Virus record (IMG/VR): IMGVR_UViG_3300032287_000609
Coordinates: 1 to 22,624 of that record
Source: a virus
Strand: one strand, 5' to 3'
Length of the DNA: 22,624 nucleotides
How positions within the stretch are numbered: position 1 is the stretch's first letter; every line of letters begins with the position of its first letter. The notes under the pieces were generated by a model that saw only the letters and a list, made by a program, of their open reading frames with translations, had not been told where the DNA came from and searched no databases. The position numbers and the translations under genes are program-made. Positions 13,438-22,047 of the stretch are shown here, in pieces.

Positions 13438-15929
13438 GCTTTAGAGAATGTATTAACAATGGCGAGAATGAGGGAAAACTCTCAGGGGATCAGGCCGCCA
13501 AAGCCAGGGGCTTATTTGACGAGCTAGAGGCGGAGTACGCCAAAAAGATGGATCCCATCCAGGCCGGCACCCAGGCGGCGAAAGATACTTTTGACGCATT
13601 GCAAAAAGAAGCCATCGAAAAGAAACGTGTCAAACTGTTGCAAATACGCAACTGGCAGAAGATTAGCTTTGACTTAAATCAATATGCGGGTGGCGAAAGT
13701 TTAGGAAAAGCCGCCCAGGCATTGCTGGATCGCGATGAGTTTGCTAAGTATTCCAACGTCGAAGCCAGGCGCAAGGCCGTACTTGGTCAAATATATTCCA
13801 AGATGGATGATGTCCTGGCAACTTTTAGACGTCGCGGCGTAACCGGTGGACTAGGTAATAAGGCCATGGCCAAGGACCTGGTACGCGAAGTGTTTGGCGA
13901 GGACACCGGATCGGCCGCCGCAAAAGAATTAGCACAGTCCTGGTCAACTGCGGCGGATTATGCCCGCCAGCGCTTTAATGCGGCCGGTGGTGCCATTCCA
14001 AAACGTAAGGATTGGGGTATGCCTCAGATCCACGATTCGATGCTTGTACGCAAGGCTGGACGCGAAGAATGGACTAACTTTATCCGTGAGCGCCTGGACC
14101 TGGAAAAGATGATCGATGAGCGTACCGGGCTTAAATTTACCCCGGAACGCCTGGAGCTGGCCCTAGCACAAGTATTCGATTCTATTGCGACGGAAGGCTG
14201 GAACAAGGTTAAACCGTCCGGCGCTGGTGGTGGCCGCTCAATGGCAAACCGTCACCAGGACCATCGATTCCTGGCGTTTAAGAATGCAGATTCCTGGATG
14301 GAGTACCAGGAGAAATTCGGCAATCCTGAACCGTTCGTCACCATGGTTAATCACCTGGAAGGAATGTCCAGGGACATCGCCATGATGGAGATACTAGGGC
14401 CTAACCCTAATGCGACGGTCCGGTATATCCATCAAACCGTCATGCAAGACGCCAAACTGAAAGAGGCGAACAATCCGGAAACAAAGATGGTCGAAAAGGC
14501 CAACTCACAACTGGGTATGTTTGATTCGATGTACGCGATCCTAAATGGATCAACGGCATCCCCGGTCGATGGTACCGTTGCCAGAGGCTTTGCCGGCTTG
14601 CGTCAAATACTACAATCGGCGCAACTTGGCGCGGCCGCCGTCTCTGCCTTAACCGATATTAACTTCCAGCGTATTGCCGCTCAAACTTCGGGAATACCCG
14701 CGGCTGACGTCATTAAACGCGTCGCCGATAACCTGGTGCCATTGAACATTGACGAGAAGGGACGCCTGGCATCTCGCCTGGGATTGATCGCAGAAAACTG
14801 GACTAGCGTCGCAAACGCCCAGGCACGATTCGTCGGTGATATGACTGGCCCTGAAATTACGCGCCGCATCTCTGATACGGTCATGCGGATTACAGGGTTA
14901 TCCCCATGGACCCAGGCTGGACGCTGGGCGTTTGGCATGGAGTTTATGGGTTATATCGCTGACAATGCGGCCAAGAAATTTAAGGATTTGGATCAACCAC
15001 TCCAGGACACTTTAAACCGGTACGGCATCGGCGAGGGTAACTGGGACGTGATCCGTACTTCCGGACTATACGAACACGAAGGTGCAACATTTCTACGTCC
15101 GGAAGAGATTGCTCTACGGACCGACTTGCAACCAGGACGAGCTGACGATCTAGCGACGCGATTCCTGGAGATGATCCAGTCCGAGACGGAGTTTGCCGTA
15201 CCTTCTGCATCCATCCGTGGACGCGTCATGCTGGTAGGCGAATCACGCCCTGGTACGTTTGTGGGTGAAATCTCCCGTTCGTTCGCCATGTATAAGAATT
15301 TCCCCGTCACATTATTAAATACCCACGTCATGCGGGCCGTGAATGCGGAAAACTTTAATAAGAAGGGTGCGTACTTTGCGGACCTGGTTATCTCGACTAC
15401 CTTATTCGGCGCCCTGGCAATGCAACTCAAAGAGATTACCAAGGGGCGCGATCCCCGTACGGTAATGACGCCTGAGTTTTGGGGATCTGCATTACTCCAG
15501 GGCGGTGGCCTGGGTATCCTGGGCGACTTCTTATTCAATGACGTTAACCGTTTTGGCGGCGGACTAGAGCAAACCATTGCCGGCCCGGTAGTCGGATTCC
15601 TGGACGATACGCGCCGCCTAACAATCGGCAATGTCCAGGAATTAGCAACTGGCAAGGATACTCACTTCATGCGGGAGCTAATCTCATACGCCGGACGCTA
15701 TACCCCAGGGTCATCCATTTGGTATTTGCGCCTGGCACTAGAGCGTCAAATACTGGATCGTTTACAGATTTGGGGCGATCCGGACGCTAAACAACGAATG
15801 CGGGAAATCGAAGCGCGTTACAGACGAGAAACCGGCCAACGCTATTGGTGGTCCCCAGGTGATACCGAACCTGAACGCGGTCCGGATTTTGAGCGTTTAA
15901 CTGCGGAACCCCCGCCAAAAAGGAAATAA
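13434..15929 (+). CDS. Large internal virion / polyvalent-type protein (831 aa)
   Basis: The protein is 831 residues. It begins MSFRECINNGENEGKLSGD, followed by AARGLFDELE-like and 'AKDTFDALQKEAIEKKR' helical motifs, a start I recognise from many large proteins placed between internal virion proteins and fibers of short-tailed phages. The remainder is helical with many charged residues. A late segment (FAMYKNFPVTLLNTHVMRA, then LFGALAMQLKEITKG and GSALLQGGGLGILGDFLF) is hydrophobic and Gly-rich and may interact with membrane. The C-terminus is Pro/Lys-rich. No catalytic motif is evident. I infer that it is packaged and ejected with the other core proteins, extending the gp14/15/16 trio to four. 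CCAGG/CCTGG is especially dense here. It is coupled by ATGA (13434-13437) to the upstream gene. Confidence 0.75.
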   Translation: MSFRECINNGENEGKLSGDQAAKARGLFDELEAEYAKKMDPIQAGTQAAKDTFDALQKEAIEKKRVKLLQIRNWQKISFDLNQYAGGESLGKAAQALLDRDEFAKYSNVEARRKAVLGQIYSKMDDVLATFRRRGVTGGLGNKAMAKDLVREVFGEDTGSAAAKELAQSWSTAADYARQRFNAAGGAIPKRKDWGMPQIHDSMLVRKAGREEWTNFIRERLDLEKMIDERTGLKFTPERLELALAQVFDSIATEGWNKVKPSGAGGGRSMANRHQDHRFLAFKNADSWMEYQEKFGNPEPFVTMVNHLEGMSRDIAMMEILGPNPNATVRYIHQTVMQDAKLKEANNPETKMVEKANSQLGMFDSMYAILNGSTASPVDGTVARGFAGLRQILQSAQLGAAAVSALTDINFQRIAAQTSGIPAADVIKRVADNLVPLNIDEKGRLASRLGLIAENWTSVANAQARFVGDMTGPEITRRISDTVMRITGLSPWTQAGRWAFGMEFMGYIADNAAKKFKDLDQPLQDTLNRYGIGEGNWDVIRTSGLYEHEGATFLRPEEIALRTDLQPGRADDLATRFLEMIQSETEFAVPSASIRGRVMLVGESRPGTFVGEISRSFAMYKNFPVTLLNTHVMRAVNAENFNKKGAYFADLVISTTLFGALAMQLKEITKGRDPRTVMTPEFWGSALLQGGGLGILGDFLFNDVNRFGGGLEQTIAGPVVGFLDDTRRLTIGNVQELATGKDTHFMRELISYAGRYTPGSSIWYLRLALERQILDRLQIWGDPDAKQRMREIEARYRRETGQRYWWSPGDTEPERGPDFERLTAEPPPKRK

Positions 15930-15977
15930 TGATGGAAAAATCTTCCAGTTTAAGGTATAAATTATCAGGAGAAAAAA

Positions 15978-17612
15978 ATGGCTGATTTCCCAATATCACC
16001 CGTAGTGAGACGAGTAGTCTATACCGGCTCGGCTGGTACTGGACCCTATGCGTTCACCTTTGAAATATTGGCGCAAACTGATATTGACGTTTATGTCGAT
16101 GCAACTCTAAAGACATTAACCACGGATTACACGGTAACGATTAACTCAAACGGTACCGGCGCAGTTAATTTCGTTACTGCCCCAGGATCTACTAAACGGA
16201 TCACAATTGTAGGCGCCAGGGATATTACCCGCGCATCCGATTATGTAACTGGTGGCGACTTTACTGCGGCATCGCTTAACGTTGAGCTAGATCAGCAAAC
16301 CATCTTTAATCAGCAAAATGCGGAAGCCTTGGGTCGTGCGATCTTGGCTCCCGTCACGGACCCGGCCTCTATCAATATGGTGTTGCCGGTGCAAACTTCC
16401 CGCGCTGGAAAGATCCTGGCATTCGATTCGACTGGTAATCCTACGGTCGGTGAAGAGATTGGTAACTGGCGTGGTAACTGGGCCGCTGGTCAAGCCTATA
16501 CCGTCCGCGACCTGGTAAAAGACGCCAGCAACGCAAACGTATATCGTGCCAATACGGCCCATACTTCCAGCGGCACAACGCCAATCAGCTCGAATGCTGA
16601 CGTAGCTAAGTGGGACCTGGTAGTCGATGCGGCATCTGCCGCCTCTAGTGCATCAGCGGCCGCGTCATCAGCTAGTGCGGCCGCTAGTTCAGCGAGCGCG
16701 GCATCTACTTCTGCATCGAACGCCTCAACATCGGCCACGAATGCGGCCAGCTCTGCATCAACGGCAACAACCCAGGCAACAAACGCAAGCAACTCAGCAA
16801 CGTCCGCCGCTAGTTCAGCATCCTCGGCTACTTCATCGGCCTCGACTGCAACGACACAAGCGAGCAATGCGTCAACTTCTGCGTCGAATGCGGCAACAAG
16901 CGCAACGTCGGCCAGCAATAGCGCGTCAACTGCTACAACCCAGGCGACTAATGCTAGTACGTCAGCAAGCTCCGCGTCCACAAGCGCAACGAACGCCAGC
17001 AACTCCGCTAGTTCTGCCAGCACTTCTGCCACGAATGCAAGCAATAGCGCCAGCTCGGCCAGCACTTCTGCCAGCAATGCGTCAACCAGCGCAACGAACG
17101 CGGCGGCAAGTGCGGCATCTGCCCTGGCCGCTTTAGATGACTTTACCGATACTTACCTGGGCGCGTTTTCTACGGACCCAACTTTAGACAATGATGGCAA
17201 TGCGCTATCTGCTGGTGACTTATATTTCAATACCGTCTCAAATCGTTTAAAGGTATATAGCGGATCTGCCTGGTCATTCGCGATTGTTGATACGACAACC
17301 GTCGTCACAAAAACAAGCTCTACTGGAGCGGCTATTATTCCAGCGGGTACAACGGGCGAGCGTGATGGCTCACCGGCCAACGGATACTTTAGATACAATT
17401 CCTCGCTCGCATCCTTTGAGGGATATGTTGGTGGCGCCTGGGGTGGAGTAGGTGGCGCACAAGCTGGCGGCGTTATCTTTGAAAACTCATTAACGATTAG
17501 CGCAAACTACACGCTATCTACCAGCAAAAATGGATTGAGTGTAGGCCCGATCACAATCAATAGCGGCGTATCGGTAACGGTACCAAGCGGACAAAGGTGG
17601 GTAATATTATGA
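15978..17612 (+). CDS. Tail fiber protein with T7 gp17-type anchor and Ser/Ala heptad shaft
   Basis: The protein is 544 residues. Residues 1 to about 150 (RVVYTGSAGTGPYAFTFEIL, TDIDVYVD, ITIVGARDITRASDY, NVELDQQTIFNQQNAEALGR) are the T7 gp17-type N-terminal domain that docks fibers on the tail. A linker with WRGNWAAGQAYTVRDLVKD and 'VYRAN-AHTSS' follows, a common fiber/chitin-binding-like turn. Residues 218-385 are the low-complexity heptad shaft. Then come DLYFNTVSNRLKVYSGSAW (a frequent fiber head motif) and a C-terminal strand-rich end finishing SGVSVTVPSGQRWVIL. A clear SD (AGGAG 15967-15971) precedes ATG 15978. The stop overlaps the next gene (ATGA). This is probably the trimeric host-recognition fiber; the receptor is unknown. 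Confidence 0.92.
   Translation: MADFPISPVVRRVVYTGSAGTGPYAFTFEILAQTDIDVYVDATLKTLTTDYTVTINSNGTGAVNFVTAPGSTKRITIVGARDITRASDYVTGGDFTAASLNVELDQQTIFNQQNAEALGRAILAPVTDPASINMVLPVQTSRAGKILAFDSTGNPTVGEEIGNWRGNWAAGQAYTVRDLVKDASNANVYRANTAHTSSGTTPISSNADVAKWDLVVDAASAASSASAAASSASAAASSASAASTSASNASTSATNAASSASTATTQATNASNSATSAASSASSATSSASTATTQASNASTSASNAATSATSASNSASTATTQATNASTSASSASTSATNASNSASSASTSATNASNSASSASTSASNASTSATNAAASAASALAALDDFTDTYLGAFSTDPTLDNDGNALSAGDLYFNTVSNRLKVYSGSAWSFAIVDTTTVVTKTSSTGAAIIPAGTTGERDGSPANGYFRYNSSLASFEGYVGGAWGGVGGAQAGGVIFENSLTISANYTLSTSKNGLSVGPITINSGVSVTVPSGQRWVIL
16629..17132 (+). repeat. 24 Ser/Ala heptads encoding the fiber shaft
   Basis: Residues 218-385 of the fiber divide without slippage into 24 seven-residue units of the form Ser-Ala-x-x-Ala/Ser-x-x. 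In the middle, the pair SASTATT + Q-A-T/S-N-A-S-x recurs every four heptads (28 residues) three times. The DNA is far more varied than the protein: Ser is written as TCA, TCT, TCG, TCC, AGC and AGT, and Ala with all four codons. Copies are therefore not recent duplications, or have been scrambled by synonymous change. Confidence 0.85.
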
Positions 17613-18139
17613 GCATTGTTTTAATCGGATCAACCAGCGGAAGCATTACATTGCAAGAGCCGGCCGTTGCTGGATCTACTGTAATAGATTTGCCAGCTAC
17701 ATCGGGTACGCTGGATCGCACTAATCGCGCTGGGAATGTATTGCAAGTGGTTAGTTACGCTGACTCAAATCAAAGAGCTACTTCTAACGGCACTTTTACT
17801 TCATCTGGAATGGCAGTTACGATTACGCCAACTTCAGCAACAAGCAAAATATTTGTAAAAGTGGATACTTGCTGTTATAAAAATACCGATGGTGCTGGGT
17901 ATTTAACTATTTATAGGGGTGGTACAAACTTAGCTGGTAGTGGAAATCAATTAAATATGCTTAATGTGGCAGATAGATATGTGCCGCTTTCAATGAGTTT
18001 TTTAGATTCTCCAGCAACAACTTCCGCAATTACCTATGATGTTTATTATTTTAGAACTGGTTCAGCCAATATTTATGTTAATGCTACTAATAGTGGTTCA
18101 ACAGTAGGTTCAATTACAGTAACGGAGATTGCGGGATGA
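17609..18139 (+). CDS. Fiber tip-like protein, copy 1
   Basis: ATG 17609 overlaps the fiber stop (ATGA). A GTG 12 bases upstream, in frame, is less likely because the SD (AAAGGTGG, 17593-17600) is correctly spaced for 17609. The product has 176 residues. A variable N-terminal part (MSIVLIGSTSGSITLQEPA) is followed from VLQVV (residue 44) by a beta-rich domain shared with copies 2 and 3: 'ITPTSATSKIFV', SFLDSPATTSAITYDV and a final ITVTEIAG. Such domains are common at the distal end of phage fibers, so a receptor-binding tip or fiber-associated role is likely but unproven. The last codons contain the GGAG SD for the next gene. Confidence 0.82.
   Translation: MSIVLIGSTSGSITLQEPAVAGSTVIDLPATSGTLDRTNRAGNVLQVVSYADSNQRATSNGTFTSSGMAVTITPTSATSKIFVKVDTCCYKNTDGAGYLTIYRGGTNLAGSGNQLNMLNVADRYVPLSMSFLDSPATTSAITYDVYYFRTGSANIYVNATNSGSTVGSITVTEIAG
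18124..18138 (+). promoter_or_regulatory. SD inside the conserved C-terminal codons of tip copy 1
   Basis: GGAG at 18124-18127 lies eight bases before ATG 18136, within GGAGATTGCGGG that encodes the last residues E-I-A-G. The same block occurs at the other two tip/partner junctions. It fixes the start of the short partner gene. Confidence 0.8.
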
Positions 18140-18288
18140 TTGAATATGTGATTTTTGTGCCAGCACTTCAAAGGTTATATCCATCGGTCGTTCGTACTGT
18201 TGGTTATGTGGCTTACGATAAAGACGATAACATTGTTGAATACGATAAGGCCGCAGTAGAAGCCGAAGCAAGTAAGGAGCAAACGTAA
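18136..18288 (+). CDS. Short fiber-assembly/chaperone-like protein, copy 1 (50 aa, lacks C-terminal half)
   Basis: ATG 18136 (overlapping the previous stop as ATGA) to TAA 18286-18288 encodes 50 residues. The N-terminal RLYPSVVRTVGYVAYDKDD aligns with 'KLNPSVITIRGDVAYDANN' of copy 2, and EYDKAAVEAEA aligns with AYDKAAVQAYV. It then ends in SKEQT, without the 'RAAEYPSIGDQLDALW' domain of copy 2. It is therefore either a genuine short form or a truncated remnant. The stop overlaps the next start (TAATG), so the unit remains translationally linked. Family members near fibers are called tail fiber assembly or XkdW-like proteins; whether this short form is active cannot be told from sequence. Confidence 0.75.
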   Translation: MIEYVIFVPALQRLYPSVVRTVGYVAYDKDDNIVEYDKAAVEAEASKEQT

Positions 18289-18839
18289 TGGCCGTCATCA
18301 TAAATGCTAGTACCAGCACAGGCCTGGTACAAAGTGCCGACACATCAGGCATTATCCAGTTTCAGTCTAACGGGTCAACGAAGGCCACGCTTAACTCGTC
18401 GGGATTCTCTTATCCTGGCGGCGTATTGCAAGTGGTTCAAAATACTTATTCAACAGAAGTATCAACTTCAAGTTCATCAAACGTAGATACAGGGTTAAAT
18501 GCCTCAATAACACCTACATCTGCATCAAGCAAAATTTTAATTATGTGTGCGCCAACATTTAGAGCAACAAGCGGTTCTTCTACTTCTGATGCGTTTGTTC
18601 ATGGAATTTTATGGAGAGGCGCAGTTGGTTCAGGAACAAATTTAATCAATGGTTATGCTATGGCTGGTTGTAGAACTAGCGATTTTAGAAGTGTGCCAAA
18701 TATGATATATCTTGATTCTCCAGCAACAACCTCTTCAGTAACATACAGAATAAGCATGAATAGCCAAAATGCTAGTAGTGTTTTAATTAACTCAGGTACA
18801 ACCCCATCAGTAATGATTCTTATGGAGATTGCGGCATGA
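18288..18839 (+). CDS. Fiber tip-like protein, copy 2
   Basis: The protein is 183 residues. The N-terminal 40 residues (MAVIINASTSTGLVQSADT, IIQFQSNGSTKATLNSSGF) form a segment often used in fiber proteins to link to trimeric stalks. From VLQVV (residue 46) comes the domain shared with copies 1 and 3: 'VDTGLNASITPTSASSKILI', LDSPATTSSVTYRI and the terminal LMEIAA. DNA coding the first part is G+C-rich with CCAGG/CCTGG sites; after about 18424 it becomes AT-rich, a sharp compositional break. The start overlaps the previous stop (TAATG), and the last codons carry the GGAG SD for copy 2 of the partner. It is probably a structural protein at the fiber end. Confidence 0.82.
   Translation: MAVIINASTSTGLVQSADTSGIIQFQSNGSTKATLNSSGFSYPGGVLQVVQNTYSTEVSTSSSSNVDTGLNASITPTSASSKILIMCAPTFRATSGSSTSDAFVHGILWRGAVGSGTNLINGYAMAGCRTSDFRSVPNMIYLDSPATTSSVTYRISMNSQNASSVLINSGTTPSVMILMEIAA
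18824..18838 (+). promoter_or_regulatory. SD inside the conserved C-terminal codons of tip copy 2
   Basis: GGAG 18824-18827 stands eight bases before ATG 18836 within GGAGATTGCGGC, which encodes E-I-A-A. The sequence is identical to the third junction (19626-19640) over the whole block. Confidence 0.8.
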
Positions 18840-19105
18840 ACCACGATGCTATTTACAAACTAAATCCATCCGTAATAACCATTCGTGGCGATGTCGCTTA
18901 CGATGCAAACAACAACGAAGTCGCATACGATAAAGCCGCAGTCCAGGCTTACGTTGATGCTCATGCTTACATCACTAAACGCGCCGCTGAATACCCATCC
19001 ATCGGCGATCAGCTAGACGCATTGTGGAAAGGTGGCGACGCCGCCGCTGAAATGCTTGCCAAGGTCCAGGCCGTTAAAGTTAAGTATCCGAAAGGAGTAG
19101 CATAA
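18836..19105 (+). CDS. Fiber-assembly/chaperone-like protein, copy 2 (89 aa)
   Basis: The 89 residues are in two parts: an N-terminal beta-like segment (YKLNPSVITIRGDVAYDANN, 'VAYDKAAVQAYVDA') and a C-terminal helical motif RAAEYPSIGDQLDALWKGG ending KVQAVKVKYPKG. The motif 'R-A-x-x-Y-P-S-I-x-x-Q-L-D-x-L-x-x-G' is widespread in small proteins next to fibers of Proteobacterial phages, often labelled XkdW-like or tail fiber assembly. This copy has both parts, unlike copy 1. The start overlaps the tip gene by four bases and the stop overlaps the next tip gene by one (TAATG). It is likely to help fold or attach the tip encoded just before it, an inference from pairing. Confidence 0.8.
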   Translation: MNHDAIYKLNPSVITIRGDVAYDANNNEVAYDKAAVQAYVDAHAYITKRAAEYPSIGDQLDALWKGGDAAAEMLAKVQAVKVKYPKGVA

Positions 19106-19641
19106 TGCCATTAGTCCTAAGTGGTGACGGAATCACCAGCGCCAACATCACAAGCCTGGCGGCGAGCAAGCTGACTGGCCAGGTGCCGGACGCGAATGCT
19201 CCAAGTGGGAGTGTTATTCAAGTCGTTAATGGATTTACATCAACAAATGTAACTACAACTTCTGTGGAGACTTGGGTAGATACTGGAATTACGGCAACTA
19301 TTACTCCTCAATTTTCTACAAGTAACATTTTGGTTTTAATAAATCCAATAGGTATGCAGAAAGATTCGGGGACCCATTGGAATAGAATGGCGTTTAGATT
19401 GATGCGAAATTCAACAACACTTCATTCAGGTGCCGCTCAGCTTTGGTCTTATAACACGGATTTTTATTTCAGAAGTGCTGGAGCTTTTTATTCAAAGTTA
19501 GATTCTCCTGGATCCACTTCTGCTCTAACATACAAGATGCAATTTTTGGCTGAAAATCTTTCAAATGGCAATGGTGTTTCTATTCAAAAAGATAGTAACT
19601 CAGGCGAAAGCCAAATATTTTTAATGGAGATTGCGGCATGA
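19105..19641 (+). CDS. Fiber tip-like protein, copy 3
   Basis: The protein is 178 residues. The N-terminus (MPLVLSGDGITSANITSLAA, then KLTGQVPDANAPSGSV) is a common fiber start, seen in many phage tail fiber C-terminal modules ('L-x-x-x-G-x-x-x-A-N-I...L-x-G-x-x-P'). The shared domain begins at VIQVV (residue 35) and includes 'VDTGITATITPQFSTSNILV', LDSPGSTSALTYKM and the terminal FLMEIAA. Of the three copies it is the most divergent in the shared DNA words. Composition drops from G+C-rich to AT-rich at about 19205, matching the junction in copy 2. The start overlaps the previous gene by one base. It carries the third internal GGAG SD. Confidence 0.82.
   Translation: MPLVLSGDGITSANITSLAASKLTGQVPDANAPSGSVIQVVNGFTSTNVTTTSVETWVDTGITATITPQFSTSNILVLINPIGMQKDSGTHWNRMAFRLMRNSTTLHSGAAQLWSYNTDFYFRSAGAFYSKLDSPGSTSALTYKMQFLAENLSNGNGVSIQKDSNSGESQIFLMEIAA
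19626..19640 (+). promoter_or_regulatory. SD inside the conserved C-terminal codons of tip copy 3
   Basis: GGAG 19626-19629 is eight bases before ATG 19638, within the same GGAGATTGCGGC block as copy 2 and encoding E-I-A-A. Confidence 0.8.
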
Positions 19642-19925
19642 TTGGAAAAGTAGAAGCAATATATTCGTTAAAACCAAAAGCACAATGGACATTGCGTGGC
19701 GATGATTTAGAGTGGCTTGATACAAATCAAACAAAACCAACTGAAGCAGAAATACAGGCTGAGATTGTTCGCCTTCAAGCAGAGTATGATGCAAAACAAT
19801 ACCAACGCGATCGCGCCGCCGAGTACCCATCATTCGCAGAACAATTCGATACGCTTTATCACGGCGGCTATGACGCCTGGAAGGCAACGATTGATTCTGT
19901 AAAAGCCAAGTATCCCAAGCCGTAG
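19638..19925 (+). CDS. Fiber-assembly/chaperone-like protein, copy 3 (95 aa)
   Basis: The protein is 95 residues. Its first half (YSLKPKAQWTLRGDDLEWLD) corresponds in position to 'YKLNPSVITIRGDVAYD' of copy 2 but is divergent. The second half has the same landmark as copy 2, RAAEYPSFAEQFDTLYHGG, followed by 'DAWKATIDSVKAKYPKP'. A helix rich in Glu/Gln (EAEIQAEIVRLQAEYDAKQ) links the two. This ending (Y-P-S-x-x-x-Q-x-D-x-L-Y-H-G-G, A-x-K-x-x-x-P-K-P) is typical of the family in phages. The stop is 13 bases before the next ATG, so the tight overlap pattern ends here. It is probably the partner of tip copy 3. Confidence 0.8.
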   Translation: MIGKVEAIYSLKPKAQWTLRGDDLEWLDTNQTKPTEAEIQAEIVRLQAEYDAKQYQRDRAAEYPSFAEQFDTLYHGGYDAWKATIDSVKAKYPKP

Positions 19926-19938
19926 GAATTAACCTAAA

Positions 19939-20142
19939 ATGACCGACGATCTTAACCAGCAAATCGGCCGCCTTGAAGCGCACGTCGAGCAACTCCAGCG
20001 CGACATGACTGATATAAAAGGTAGCATTAAAACCATGAGCGATCAGATGAATCGCTGGCGCGGAGCTGGTGCGATCCTCTTACTGGTGGGCGCGGCATTC
20101 GGTTGGGTGATCGATATGCTTTACAAGGCCCTGGGAAAGTAA
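19939..20142 (+). CDS. Small coiled-coil plus transmembrane protein (XhlA-like, 67 aa)
   Basis: The protein is 67 residues. Residues 1-38 are an amphipathic helix with a coiled-coil pattern (IGRLEAHVEQLQRDMTDIKG), and residues 41-60 form one transmembrane helix (GAGAILLLVGAAFGWVIDML) with a short basic tail. This is the design of XhlA-type haemolysin/holin-accessory proteins, in which a cytosolic or periplasmic coiled coil is tied to the membrane. Position ahead of a holin and endolysin supports a lysis role. It could equally be a tail-associated or superinfection-exclusion membrane protein. The only SD-like word is a weak AGGA about 11 bases upstream of the ATG. Confidence 0.72.
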   Translation: MTDDLNQQIGRLEAHVEQLQRDMTDIKGSIKTMSDQMNRWRGAGAILLLVGAAFGWVIDMLYKALGK

Positions 20143-20151
20143 GCACATGAT

Positions 20152-20604
20152 ATGGCCGACGATTTTGGGTTTACAGAAGGCGTTAAAAGTCTTAGCGGAT
20201 CTCTTGATGCGGCGCGAGAAGCCAGCAAAGGATTATCCAAGAGTATCCAAAACGTCCAAAACGACGGCCTCGAACTTGCCCAGCAACAAGCCAGGGAACG
20301 CAAGCTCGCCGAAAAGCGCGCCGCGCTCCTTAAAGAGCGGGCCATCTTCAAAGCGCTCGAAGAATACAAGCACCGGAAAATCATCAGCGACCAGGAATAT
20401 AAAGCAAAAGTAGAATTTGTAAAGAAGTACGGCACCAAGGAATGGGCCGAAGTGTTAAAGATTAAGAGTGATATTGAAGAGCTGGAAAAGAAAAGTAAAA
20501 AGTTATTCGATGCGGATTTAGAAAAGATTAGACGCGTACAGTTTTTATGTTTTCTTGTCGCTGGTTGGTGTGCATACTATCTTGTTTGGGGGATTAAAAA
20601 ATAA
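20152..20604 (+). CDS. Coiled-coil protein with C-terminal membrane anchor (150 aa)
   Basis: The protein is 150 residues. Residues about 15-120 are almost entirely charged helix (QQQARERKLAEKRAALLKER, EYKAKVEFVKKYGTKEW), and residues 130-147 are hydrophobic (FLCFLVAGWCAYYLVWGI) with a Lys-Lys end, a probable single transmembrane helix. I do not recognise a characterised family, although proteins with 'EW-EVL-IK-EIE' followed by 'R-VQ' and a membrane helix occur near podovirus lysis genes. It starts nine bases after the previous stop; an overlapping ATG at 20147 opens a different frame that I judge to be a shadow. It could be a lysis accessory (spanin-like anchor) or a membrane-bound virion protein. 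Confidence 0.72.
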   Translation: MADDFGFTEGVKSLSGSLDAAREASKGLSKSIQNVQNDGLELAQQQARERKLAEKRAALLKERAIFKALEEYKHRKIISDQEYKAKVEFVKKYGTKEWAEVLKIKSDIEELEKKSKKLFDADLEKIRRVQFLCFLVAGWCAYYLVWGIKK

Positions 20605-21828: not shown

Positions 21829-22047
21829 CTAATTTACCACGATCTCGATTCCCCTGGTTAAGTAAGGTTTGATCCTTATCAATCCGCGTCGCTCCAGGCG
21901 GTGCATCATGGCATGAACTGTTGACGGGCTTGTGTATCCTAGCGCCTGGCATATCTCCCTGGTGCTAGGGTAAACCCCATGATCTGCATGATGCTTGACC
22001 AGGTGATCGAGCAATCTTTTTTGCATCGGTGTTGGTGCTAATTTCAT
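21829..22047 (-). CDS. Stand-alone LexA-type winged-helix DNA-binding protein (72 aa)
   Basis: The protein is 72 residues. PTPMQKRLLDHLVKHHADHG (6-25), YPSTREICQALGYTSPSTVH (26-45) and MHRLERRGLIRI (48-59), ending in TRGIEIV, closely follow the LexA N-terminal domain: 'L-T-x-x-Q...I-x-x-H...G-x-x-P-T-x-x-E-I-x-x-x-L-G-x-x-S-x-x-x-x-x-x-x-x-L-x-x-x-G-x-I...R-G-I'. The self-cleaving S24 peptidase part of LexA is entirely absent. It may therefore repress SOS-box-like promoters of host or phage without RecA-dependent inactivation, or compete with host LexA. It shares TAATG overlap with the gene upstream, and follows the exonuclease-like gene in one operon. Confidence 0.85.
   Translation of the reverse strand: MKLAPTPMQKRLLDHLVKHHADHGVYPSTREICQALGYTSPSTVHAMMHRLERRGLIRIKPYLTRGIEIVVN

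Follow-up and report, generated by a model that had tools for sequence, protein, structure and literature searches.

A candidate host-recognition array of exchangeable lectin-like heads and small partner genes behind the tail fiber of a T7-like phage

Tail fiber genes paired with a chaperone gene, and phages carrying several receptor-binding proteins (RBPs), are already known, and the array described here is a variant of such systems. It lies directly behind the tail fiber gene of IMG/VR record IMGVR_UViG_3300032287_000609, a T7-like phage whose only source is environmental DNA; the window that we analysed is the complete record of 22,624 bases, which is probably a fragment since it is classed as linear. 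The array consists of three short tip genes, each followed by a smaller partner gene, and we consider it probable that it serves host recognition through up to three docking slots, in which fixed frames surround an exchangeable cargo. The frame of a slot would be made up of the slot-specific N-terminal anchor of the tip and the largely slot-specific C-terminal half (C-half) of the partner, while the cargo between these pieces would be a head resembling TNF and C1q, thought to be trimeric, lectin-like and receptor-binding, together with the N-terminal half (N-half) of the partner.

The closest described layout is the gp24/gp25 pair of the myophage Pam3 in which, as in the window, a short fiber protein with a TNF-like domain is followed by the gene of a two-domain chaperone (PMC9608196). 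In that report, the non-conserved N-domain of gp25 grips the head and its conserved helical C-domain trimerises, and mass spectrometry detected gp24 but not gp25 in virions (PMC9608196). Pam3, however, has a single pair, and its gp25 is a protein of 162 aa with a beta-sandwich N-domain (PMC9608196), whereas the partners considered here have 89-95 aa and a short hairpin, and their two halves follow different rules, those of the cargo and those of the slot. Read by analogy, the pattern in the window is the trace that the Pam3 mechanism would be expected to leave if heads were exchanged often.

In the anchor-branch systems of phages G7C, KP32 and CBA120, the later RBPs are held by short conserved N-terminal peptides, there are several RBPs per phage, as here, and the receptor parts are likewise exchanged (PMC6872550, PMC11414711). 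Short conserved N-terminal peptides are also what we find in the slot anchors of the later tips. Those systems are built of large tailspikes with T4gp10-like docks (PMC6872550, PMC11414711), whereas the array has small heads, anchors of about 35-45 aa and a separate partner gene for each; general Pfam and PHROG scans of the fiber gave no T4gp10-like dock, no targeted search having been made. Alteromonas phage A5/V22 resembles the window in having a host-recognition module of fiber and cognate chaperone that is common to distant phages, and its chaperones resemble intramolecular ones; it differs in having one fiber with one chaperone, and slot frames go unmentioned in the portion of the report available (PMC10579305). 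Tail fiber, C1q-like, XkdW and 'tail fiber assembly' genes are frequent in the variable metaviromic islands of marine phages, but the accessible description says nothing of a mechanism pairing tips with partners, of slot anchors or of exchange below the gene level (PMC3909814). The gene order of the window is also approached by the cultured phage P-SSP7, where PSSP7_037 to _041 comprise a fiber, three tips, one partner and a fourth tip; our literature search found no virion proteomics on these tips. In the open-access literature searched, so far as its accessible text extends, we met no unit of exchange that bridges the end of a gene and the beginning of the following one within slot-specific frames.

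Array layout and the unit of exchange

A first-pass annotation of this DNA had claimed three consecutive pairs of tip-like and chaperone-like genes overlapping by 1-4 bases. All three are present on the plus strand, with tips of 176, 183 and 178 aa and partners of 50, 89 and 95 aa, and the overlaps are of 4, 1, 4, 1 and 4 bases within the array, with a further 4 between the fiber and tip 1. Tip 1 (17609-18139) comprises anchor 1 (about 17609-17731) and a TNF-like head (about 17732-18136), and its partner 1 (18136-18288) is truncated to the N-half, without the part bearing the RxxEYPS and KYPK motifs. Tip 2 (18288-18839) is similarly divided into anchor 2 (about 18288-18416) and a head (about 18417-18836), and partner 2 (18836-19105) into an N-half (18836-18979) and a C-half (18980-19102) of the type that we call gamma. 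In tip 3 (19105-19641), for which we built an AlphaFold2 model, anchor 3 spans about 19105-19206 and the head about 19207-19638, and partner 3 (19638-19925) has an N-half at 19638-19811 and a C-half of the alpha type at 19812-19922, ending in KYPKP. Partners 2 and 3 both match phrog_9114 (2.9e-13 and 4.4e-28).

Our comparison set holds 320 loci, mostly metagenome contigs, and several of them share a contig (for example L002, L060, L172, L270 and L307). Gene calls were mechanical, and anchors and classes were assigned by similarity to the window and L002. Counts of pairing (partner behind tip, tip with partner) are per locus and include loci sharing a contig, while those of anchor order, Mantel tests, fiber ends, junctions, S74 domains, head families and C-halves are of distinct sequences, which may be close relatives.

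Phages whose gene before the fiber is 92-99% identical differ strongly between the fiber and a 67-aa gene at 19939, where their units bear heads of TNF-like, glycine-rich, S74 or (by eye) C1q-like type. A comparison of the window with L095 and L097 in 30-base windows located the right-hand border of such an exchange: DNA identity, about 23-73% over the third head and the partner 3 N-half, leaps at a boundary inside partner 3 (19805-19815, at about 19,810, within the RAAEYPS codons) from about 40% to 96-100% and holds at 86-100% across the following gene, and a short stretch of anchor 3 reaches 76-96%. The three heads also form AT-rich dips (GC 0.34-0.40), the anchors and partner C-halves lying mostly at 0.45-0.54. 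Moreover, one and the same head can occupy different slots: in 40-base windows, L307 slot 3 and L173 slot 1 share 92-100% of their DNA from just past a QVV boundary at the head start to mid-partner and, beyond the edge windows, 30-62% outside this stretch, and L170 (anchor 2) and L197 (anchor 1) are 95-100% identical over the head and less so over the partner. The domain exchange proposed in the first-pass annotation is thus supported at the DNA level by exchange boundaries and by one head in different slots; the pair as a whole, which it had taken as the unit of the array, does not stand as the unit exchanged, which is the head plus the partner N-half.

The same border emerges from the divergence of 141 non-redundant tip-partner pairs (151 less 7 with short segments and 3 redundant). 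In Mantel tests, the divergence of the head correlated with that of the partner N-half (0.333, p 0.001) and not with that of the C-half (0.017, p 0.36); the correlation between anchor and adjacent head was weak (0.10, p 0.012), and that between the two partner halves was 0.274. Within the partner, correlation with the head declines along the chain, from 0.29-0.30 to 0.05 by residues 49-63. This fall inside the partner, along with the slot-specificity of the C-half documented below, argues, short of proving contact, that the border within this protein matters. As judged from these sequences, the head and partner N-half appear to be swapped between phages and positions, while the anchor and partner C-half stay with the position. 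Genes of homing-endonuclease type (GIY-YIG, HNH, NUMOD) sit just ahead of tip 1 or separate it from tip 2 in several loci (L235:4189-5004, L281:763-1578, L190:4474-5004, L240:1031-1624 and L255:1-624); five of six tested exceed a Pfam cut-off, and such genes might drive cargo exchange.

The loci with exchange boundaries are metagenome contigs, and assembly that joined look-alike phages at conserved stretches would place its chimeras in precisely the conserved flanks. We nevertheless hold such an artefact to be highly improbable, as the pattern extends across the 141 pairs and many separate assemblies, and the same tip-partner layout is found in six named phage records (DC33, P-SSP7, HTVC010P, MEP402, HTVC026P and MEP301). 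One of these, Limnohabitans phage DC33 (L184, PQ492659.1), is filed under Inoviridae, although its 39 kb genome carries a tip-partner pair along with a gene for an L-alanyl-D-glutamate peptidase; the assignment looks wrong.

Slot-specific anchors and the fiber end

The constancy of the frames is seen in L002, whose protein before the fiber is just 31% identical to the internal-virion-like protein of the window, yet whose anchors are identical to those of the window at fractions of 0.69, 1.00 and 0.97 in the same slot, against 0.20-0.37 across slots. The heads of the two arrays range from 0.30 to 0.48 with no slot pattern, tip 2 heads being 48% identical. Among 58 distinct arrays with at least two recognised anchors, 53 fit the order 1>2>3 (47 with 1>2, 4 with 1>2>3 and 2 with 2>3); all three slots in this order occur in four distinct contigs among those fetched, the window included.

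Two further features follow the slot. The end of the fiber gene carries the motif GPITINSGVSVTVPSGQRWVIL (17544-17609, plus strand), the proposed dock of slot 1; this fiber-type end directly precedes 67 of the 88 distinct anchor-1 genes and none of the genes with anchor 2 (0/60), anchor 3 (0/8) or anchor 3b (0/9). The partner C-half also tends to be slot-specific, as far as can be read from its sequence: class beta makes up 33/44 behind anchor 1 and 5/25 behind anchors 2, 3 and 3b (p 1e-5), gamma 6/9 behind anchor 2 and alpha 12/16 behind anchors 3 and 3b, in a count that omits 58 of 163 partners for want of a usable RxxEYP motif and consists of related sequences rather than independent events. 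Behind anchor 1 the partner may be truncated, as in the window (18136-18288), reduced to a short remnant-like frame (L223) or replaced by another gene of ~50 aa (L234).

These observations bear on how the array arose. Had one pair been duplicated in tandem recently in this lineage, and its copies then diverged, this would account for the slightly greater similarity of the partner halves within than between arrays (p 0.016 and 0.008, 16 pairs) and for short DNA stretches that recur between the tips (35 nt, 74-77%). The heads, however, are not clearly closer within arrays than between them (16 pairs, mean 0.38, against 9854 pairs, mean 0.36; p 0.09), nor are the anchors (p 0.83), and the distant L002 has the same three anchors in the same order. 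The duplication proposed in the first-pass annotation is accordingly not supported, by the head comparison, as a recent event within the array, and we regard such an event as very unlikely. In L165, two adjoining long genes (14239-15120 and 15130-16233) end in the same 18 residues, possibly the result of a recent duplication of another kind of tip.

The three tips could instead be alternatives that compete for a single site at the fiber end, such that a lineage or a burst switches or mixes specificity; the heads are homologous and of similar size, tips and partners are paired, and the content of the array differs among phages that are 92-99% identical next door. This seems quite unlikely to us, given that the anchors differ between slots and are conserved within a slot across phages, that slot 1 alone adjoins the fiber-end motif, and that promoter-like and terminator-like sites are not above shuffles. 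Phage Mu has alternative receptor heads, S and S', each with its own chaperone (U and U'), which are switched by DNA inversion. The window differs in lacking long inverted repeats in 15900-20300, where the longest arms are of 22 nt and 82% complementary; a Mu-type invertible cassette was rejected since these repeats are short, no search for a recombinase having been made. The slot-specificity of the anchors would rather point to a particle bearing several tips than to switching at a single site.

Tip heads and partner proteins

An alignment of the tips gave significant similarity in all three pairs (BLASTP E 1e-12, 4e-10 and 2e-11, each a single comparison), in agreement with the claimed common C-terminal domain. 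The window heads are 31-35% identical to one another, while the N-terminal parts, said to differ, are indeed not alike (20-37% identity); two of the alignments begin at a G-x-(L/I)-Q-V-V boundary and one six residues earlier. In the model of tip 3, built from an alignment of 68 tips, the head (residues 31-178) is mostly confident, and anchor residues 1-30 have pLDDT values of 53-60. The top fold matches of the head are PLTL (Z 14.7, rmsd 2.1, 126 aligned) and the N-domain of Bc2L-C (Z 13.8), followed by the C-terminal domain of Pgp3 (Z 13.5) and C1q domains (Z 9-10), on which basis the modelled head is a TNF/C1q-like jelly-roll nearest to bacterial TNF-like lectins. Against predicted viral structures the nearest matches are mostly unnamed phage proteins, the first being named as a lambda Stf-like fiber repeat protein.

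The placement of this head at fiber ends also has support from sequence. A profile of the 68 tips matches residues 463-658, to the last residue, of the 658-aa 'orf22' of PDB entry 9efk (E 2.9e-23), which we infer to be a fiber from its length and its 18 chains, and 31 of the 68 tips match phrog_6942 'tail fiber protein'. The same head also ends proteins of 454-1050 aa in four loci (of which L085 and L087 are identical in coordinates and length). In two of these (L078:1771-4923 and L085:2557-4905) it ends a long protein with collagen triple-helix repeats (Pfam 6.5e-96 and 9.4e-20), much as C1q sits on a collagen stalk; such repeats were found in two of the three long head-bearing proteins tested, and their position before the same domain speaks for a trimeric head. 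The identity of the tips as fiber tips is therefore supported by their lectin/TNF-like fold and by homology to the end of 9efk orf22, and the modelled fold suggests that the head is probably a trimer and possibly binds glycans.

Of the two motifs said to be common to the partners, RxxEYPS and VKxKYPK, both are found in partners 2 and 3, which align across nearly their full length (E 6e-16), and neither in partner 1, which aligns with partner 2 over 34 aa of the N-half only (56%, E 2e-10); its counterpart in L002 is full-length (91 aa). The model of partner 3 (pLDDT 96.5) begins with a helix and a short hairpin, which lead into three further helices, of which the last is long. Sequence searches of PDB with the partner gave nothing below E 0.9, and the Pfam XkdW model (PF09636) matches 5 of 67 partners at E <= 0.1 (best 1.4e-9), with the window's own partners not listed among them.

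The suggestion that the partners are chaperone-like gains support from their position directly behind a tip, which holds for 77 of 80 partners in loci fetched with the partner; conversely, in loci fetched with the tip, 30 of 33 tips have a partner behind them. The strongest hint at function is a matter of counting: in loci fetched with the anchors alone, this partner stands behind 47 of 63 tips with this head and 1 of 71 with other heads (p 4e-21), so that the partner family tracks the head family whatever the anchor. For the 61 tips with another head but no S74, the small gene behind is a different one in 46 cases and missing in 14. Thirteen tips carry an S74 chaperone domain (all above the Pfam cut-off), and none has this partner; a small gene directly behind is absent in 7 of these 13, in which some are near-duplicates, against 14 of the 61 (p 0.04). 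Since the partner family follows the head family and is absent from S74 tips, it is most likely a head-specific folding chaperone, a role likened to that of Pam3 gp25 acting on gp24. The tendency of the C-half to be slot-specific like the anchors, as if it touched a slot-specific neighbour, would also fit a structural piece of the virion, such as a cap or a joint between a head and the next anchor. We consider this unlikely, if not negligibly so, on the grounds that the family follows the head irrespective of the anchor, that tips with a built-in S74 chaperone lack this partner, and that in the closest known layout gp25 went undetected in virions (PMC9608196).

The partner would be made in step with its tip. 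Every junction from fiber/tip 1 onwards is ATGA or TAATG, hence the overlaps of 4 or 1 bases. Codons for the conserved tip end MEIAA include sequences such as ATGGAGATTGCGGCATGA that contain a ribosome-site-like stretch for the partner; in tip 1 these end codons, with their GGAG, occupy 18120-18139 (plus strand), and the ends of tips 2 and 3 are alike. ATGA junctions have such a stretch within the preceding 17 bases in 111 of 117 cases, compared with 14 of 117 control windows, and it occurs at 29 of 37 TAATG partner/tip junctions, against none in the controls. Likewise, the partner end PKG(VA), whose codons supply such a stretch, closes 37 of the 48 partners that precede a tip-like gene, against 20 of the other 104 (p 1e-11), a count in which the 36 of 152 partner ends that fit no tail pattern were scored as not PKG. 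The conserved ends of tips and partners may thus partly serve translation.

Several observations weigh against the view of slot frames with exchangeable heads and dedicated chaperones, in addition to the incomplete C-half count. In searches with the window's own tips, none of the Pfam or NCBIfam models exceeded its cut-off, and PHROG gave nothing at E 0.001. The order 2>1 is seen in 5 of the 58 arrays (L187, which is MEP402, L279 and L298-L300), with anchors 56-71% like those of the window, which suggests other slot codes in other lineages. The correlation between head and partner N-half is modest and may stem from physical linkage instead of contact. The partner N-half, a helix and a short hairpin, is not the beta-sandwich of Pam3 gp25, and the fold search with the partner gave no clear match, its top one being a solved XkdW with a weak Z of 4.1 over the N-half only; the absence of other chaperones from these matches proves nothing. 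Pairing is less favourable in other locus sets, where 77/97, 46/66, 30/41 and 7/12 tips are followed by this partner; 18 of 72 anchor-1 and anchor-2 tips with this head have no such partner, and another small gene does follow 6 of the 13 S74 tips. Lastly, P-SSP7 differs in its anchors and has a single partner for its run of tips which, together with the missing C-half of partner 1, indicates that one whole partner per tip is not obligatory.

Genome setting, proposed mechanism and implications

The window carries a T7-like head-tail module. Its portal (707-2269) is 59% identical to that of the nearest named phage, Methylophilales phage MEP301, and a Pfam scan revealed a T7-type capsid assembly protein and a capsid protein. 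Two large proteins ending at 15929 have no Pfam match and are taken from their position to be internal virion proteins; in MEP301 a protein annotated as internal virion sits before the fiber. The tail fiber open reading frame (15978-17612, plus strand, 544 aa) encodes an N-terminal tail-attachment part and a shaft of Ala/Ser/Thr repeats: residues 10-122 match a PHROG 'tail protein' (1.2e-15) and the repeat region a PHROG 'tail fiber protein' (1.9e-35), and the single PDB match, to T7 gp17 over the repeat region, is weak (E 0.046). Opposite this shaft, a 193-aa minus-strand frame is open at 16496-17077, most likely as a by-product of the repeats. The six array proteins have no curated name, NCBIfam giving nothing useful and Pfam matches lying below cut-offs. 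The array, with the 67-aa gene as its right-hand neighbour, is followed by small genes, a holin (PHROG holin, 1.4e-24) and an M15 peptidase; among 78 loci fetched by the large protein before the fiber, 12 extend to the lysis genes, 6 of which have at least one such tip head. At the right end of the window, a block of genes on the opposite strand includes a LexA-type DNA-binding domain standing alone (21829-22047, minus strand, 72 aa, Pfam 8.5e-15).

In the mechanism that we propose, seven genes (the fiber, three tips and three partners) would be made by coupled translation. The N-half of each partner would grip its own head and the helical C-half would gather three copies, aiding trimerisation of the head, after which the partner would either leave or stay as a cap. 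Anchor 1 would dock on the fiber end, and for anchors 2 and 3 the dock would be either the fiber or one another, such that one particle could display several heads. Phages with common frames could then swap cargo by recombination in the conserved flanks.

More speculatively, the array might embody a 'frame and cargo' code, which we put forward as a tentative possibility. The anchor and the matching partner C-half would act as private tags of a slot, the former placing the tip and the latter keeping three sister chaperones unmixed in one cell, and any lectin-like head with its own partner N-half would fit any slot. A particle would thereby carry up to three different heads in fixed places, drawn from a pool of heads shared by the phages of a community.

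The exchanged unit starts inside one gene, crosses a stop/start junction and ends inside the following gene, and functional borders may show there. If the proposed reading is true, it predicts which half of the chaperone recognises its client, offers natural module borders for the receptor heads of environmental phages and provides a ready test for the presence of several receptor heads at once on short-tailed phages. It would amount to a modular route by which such phages change which bacteria they recognise.

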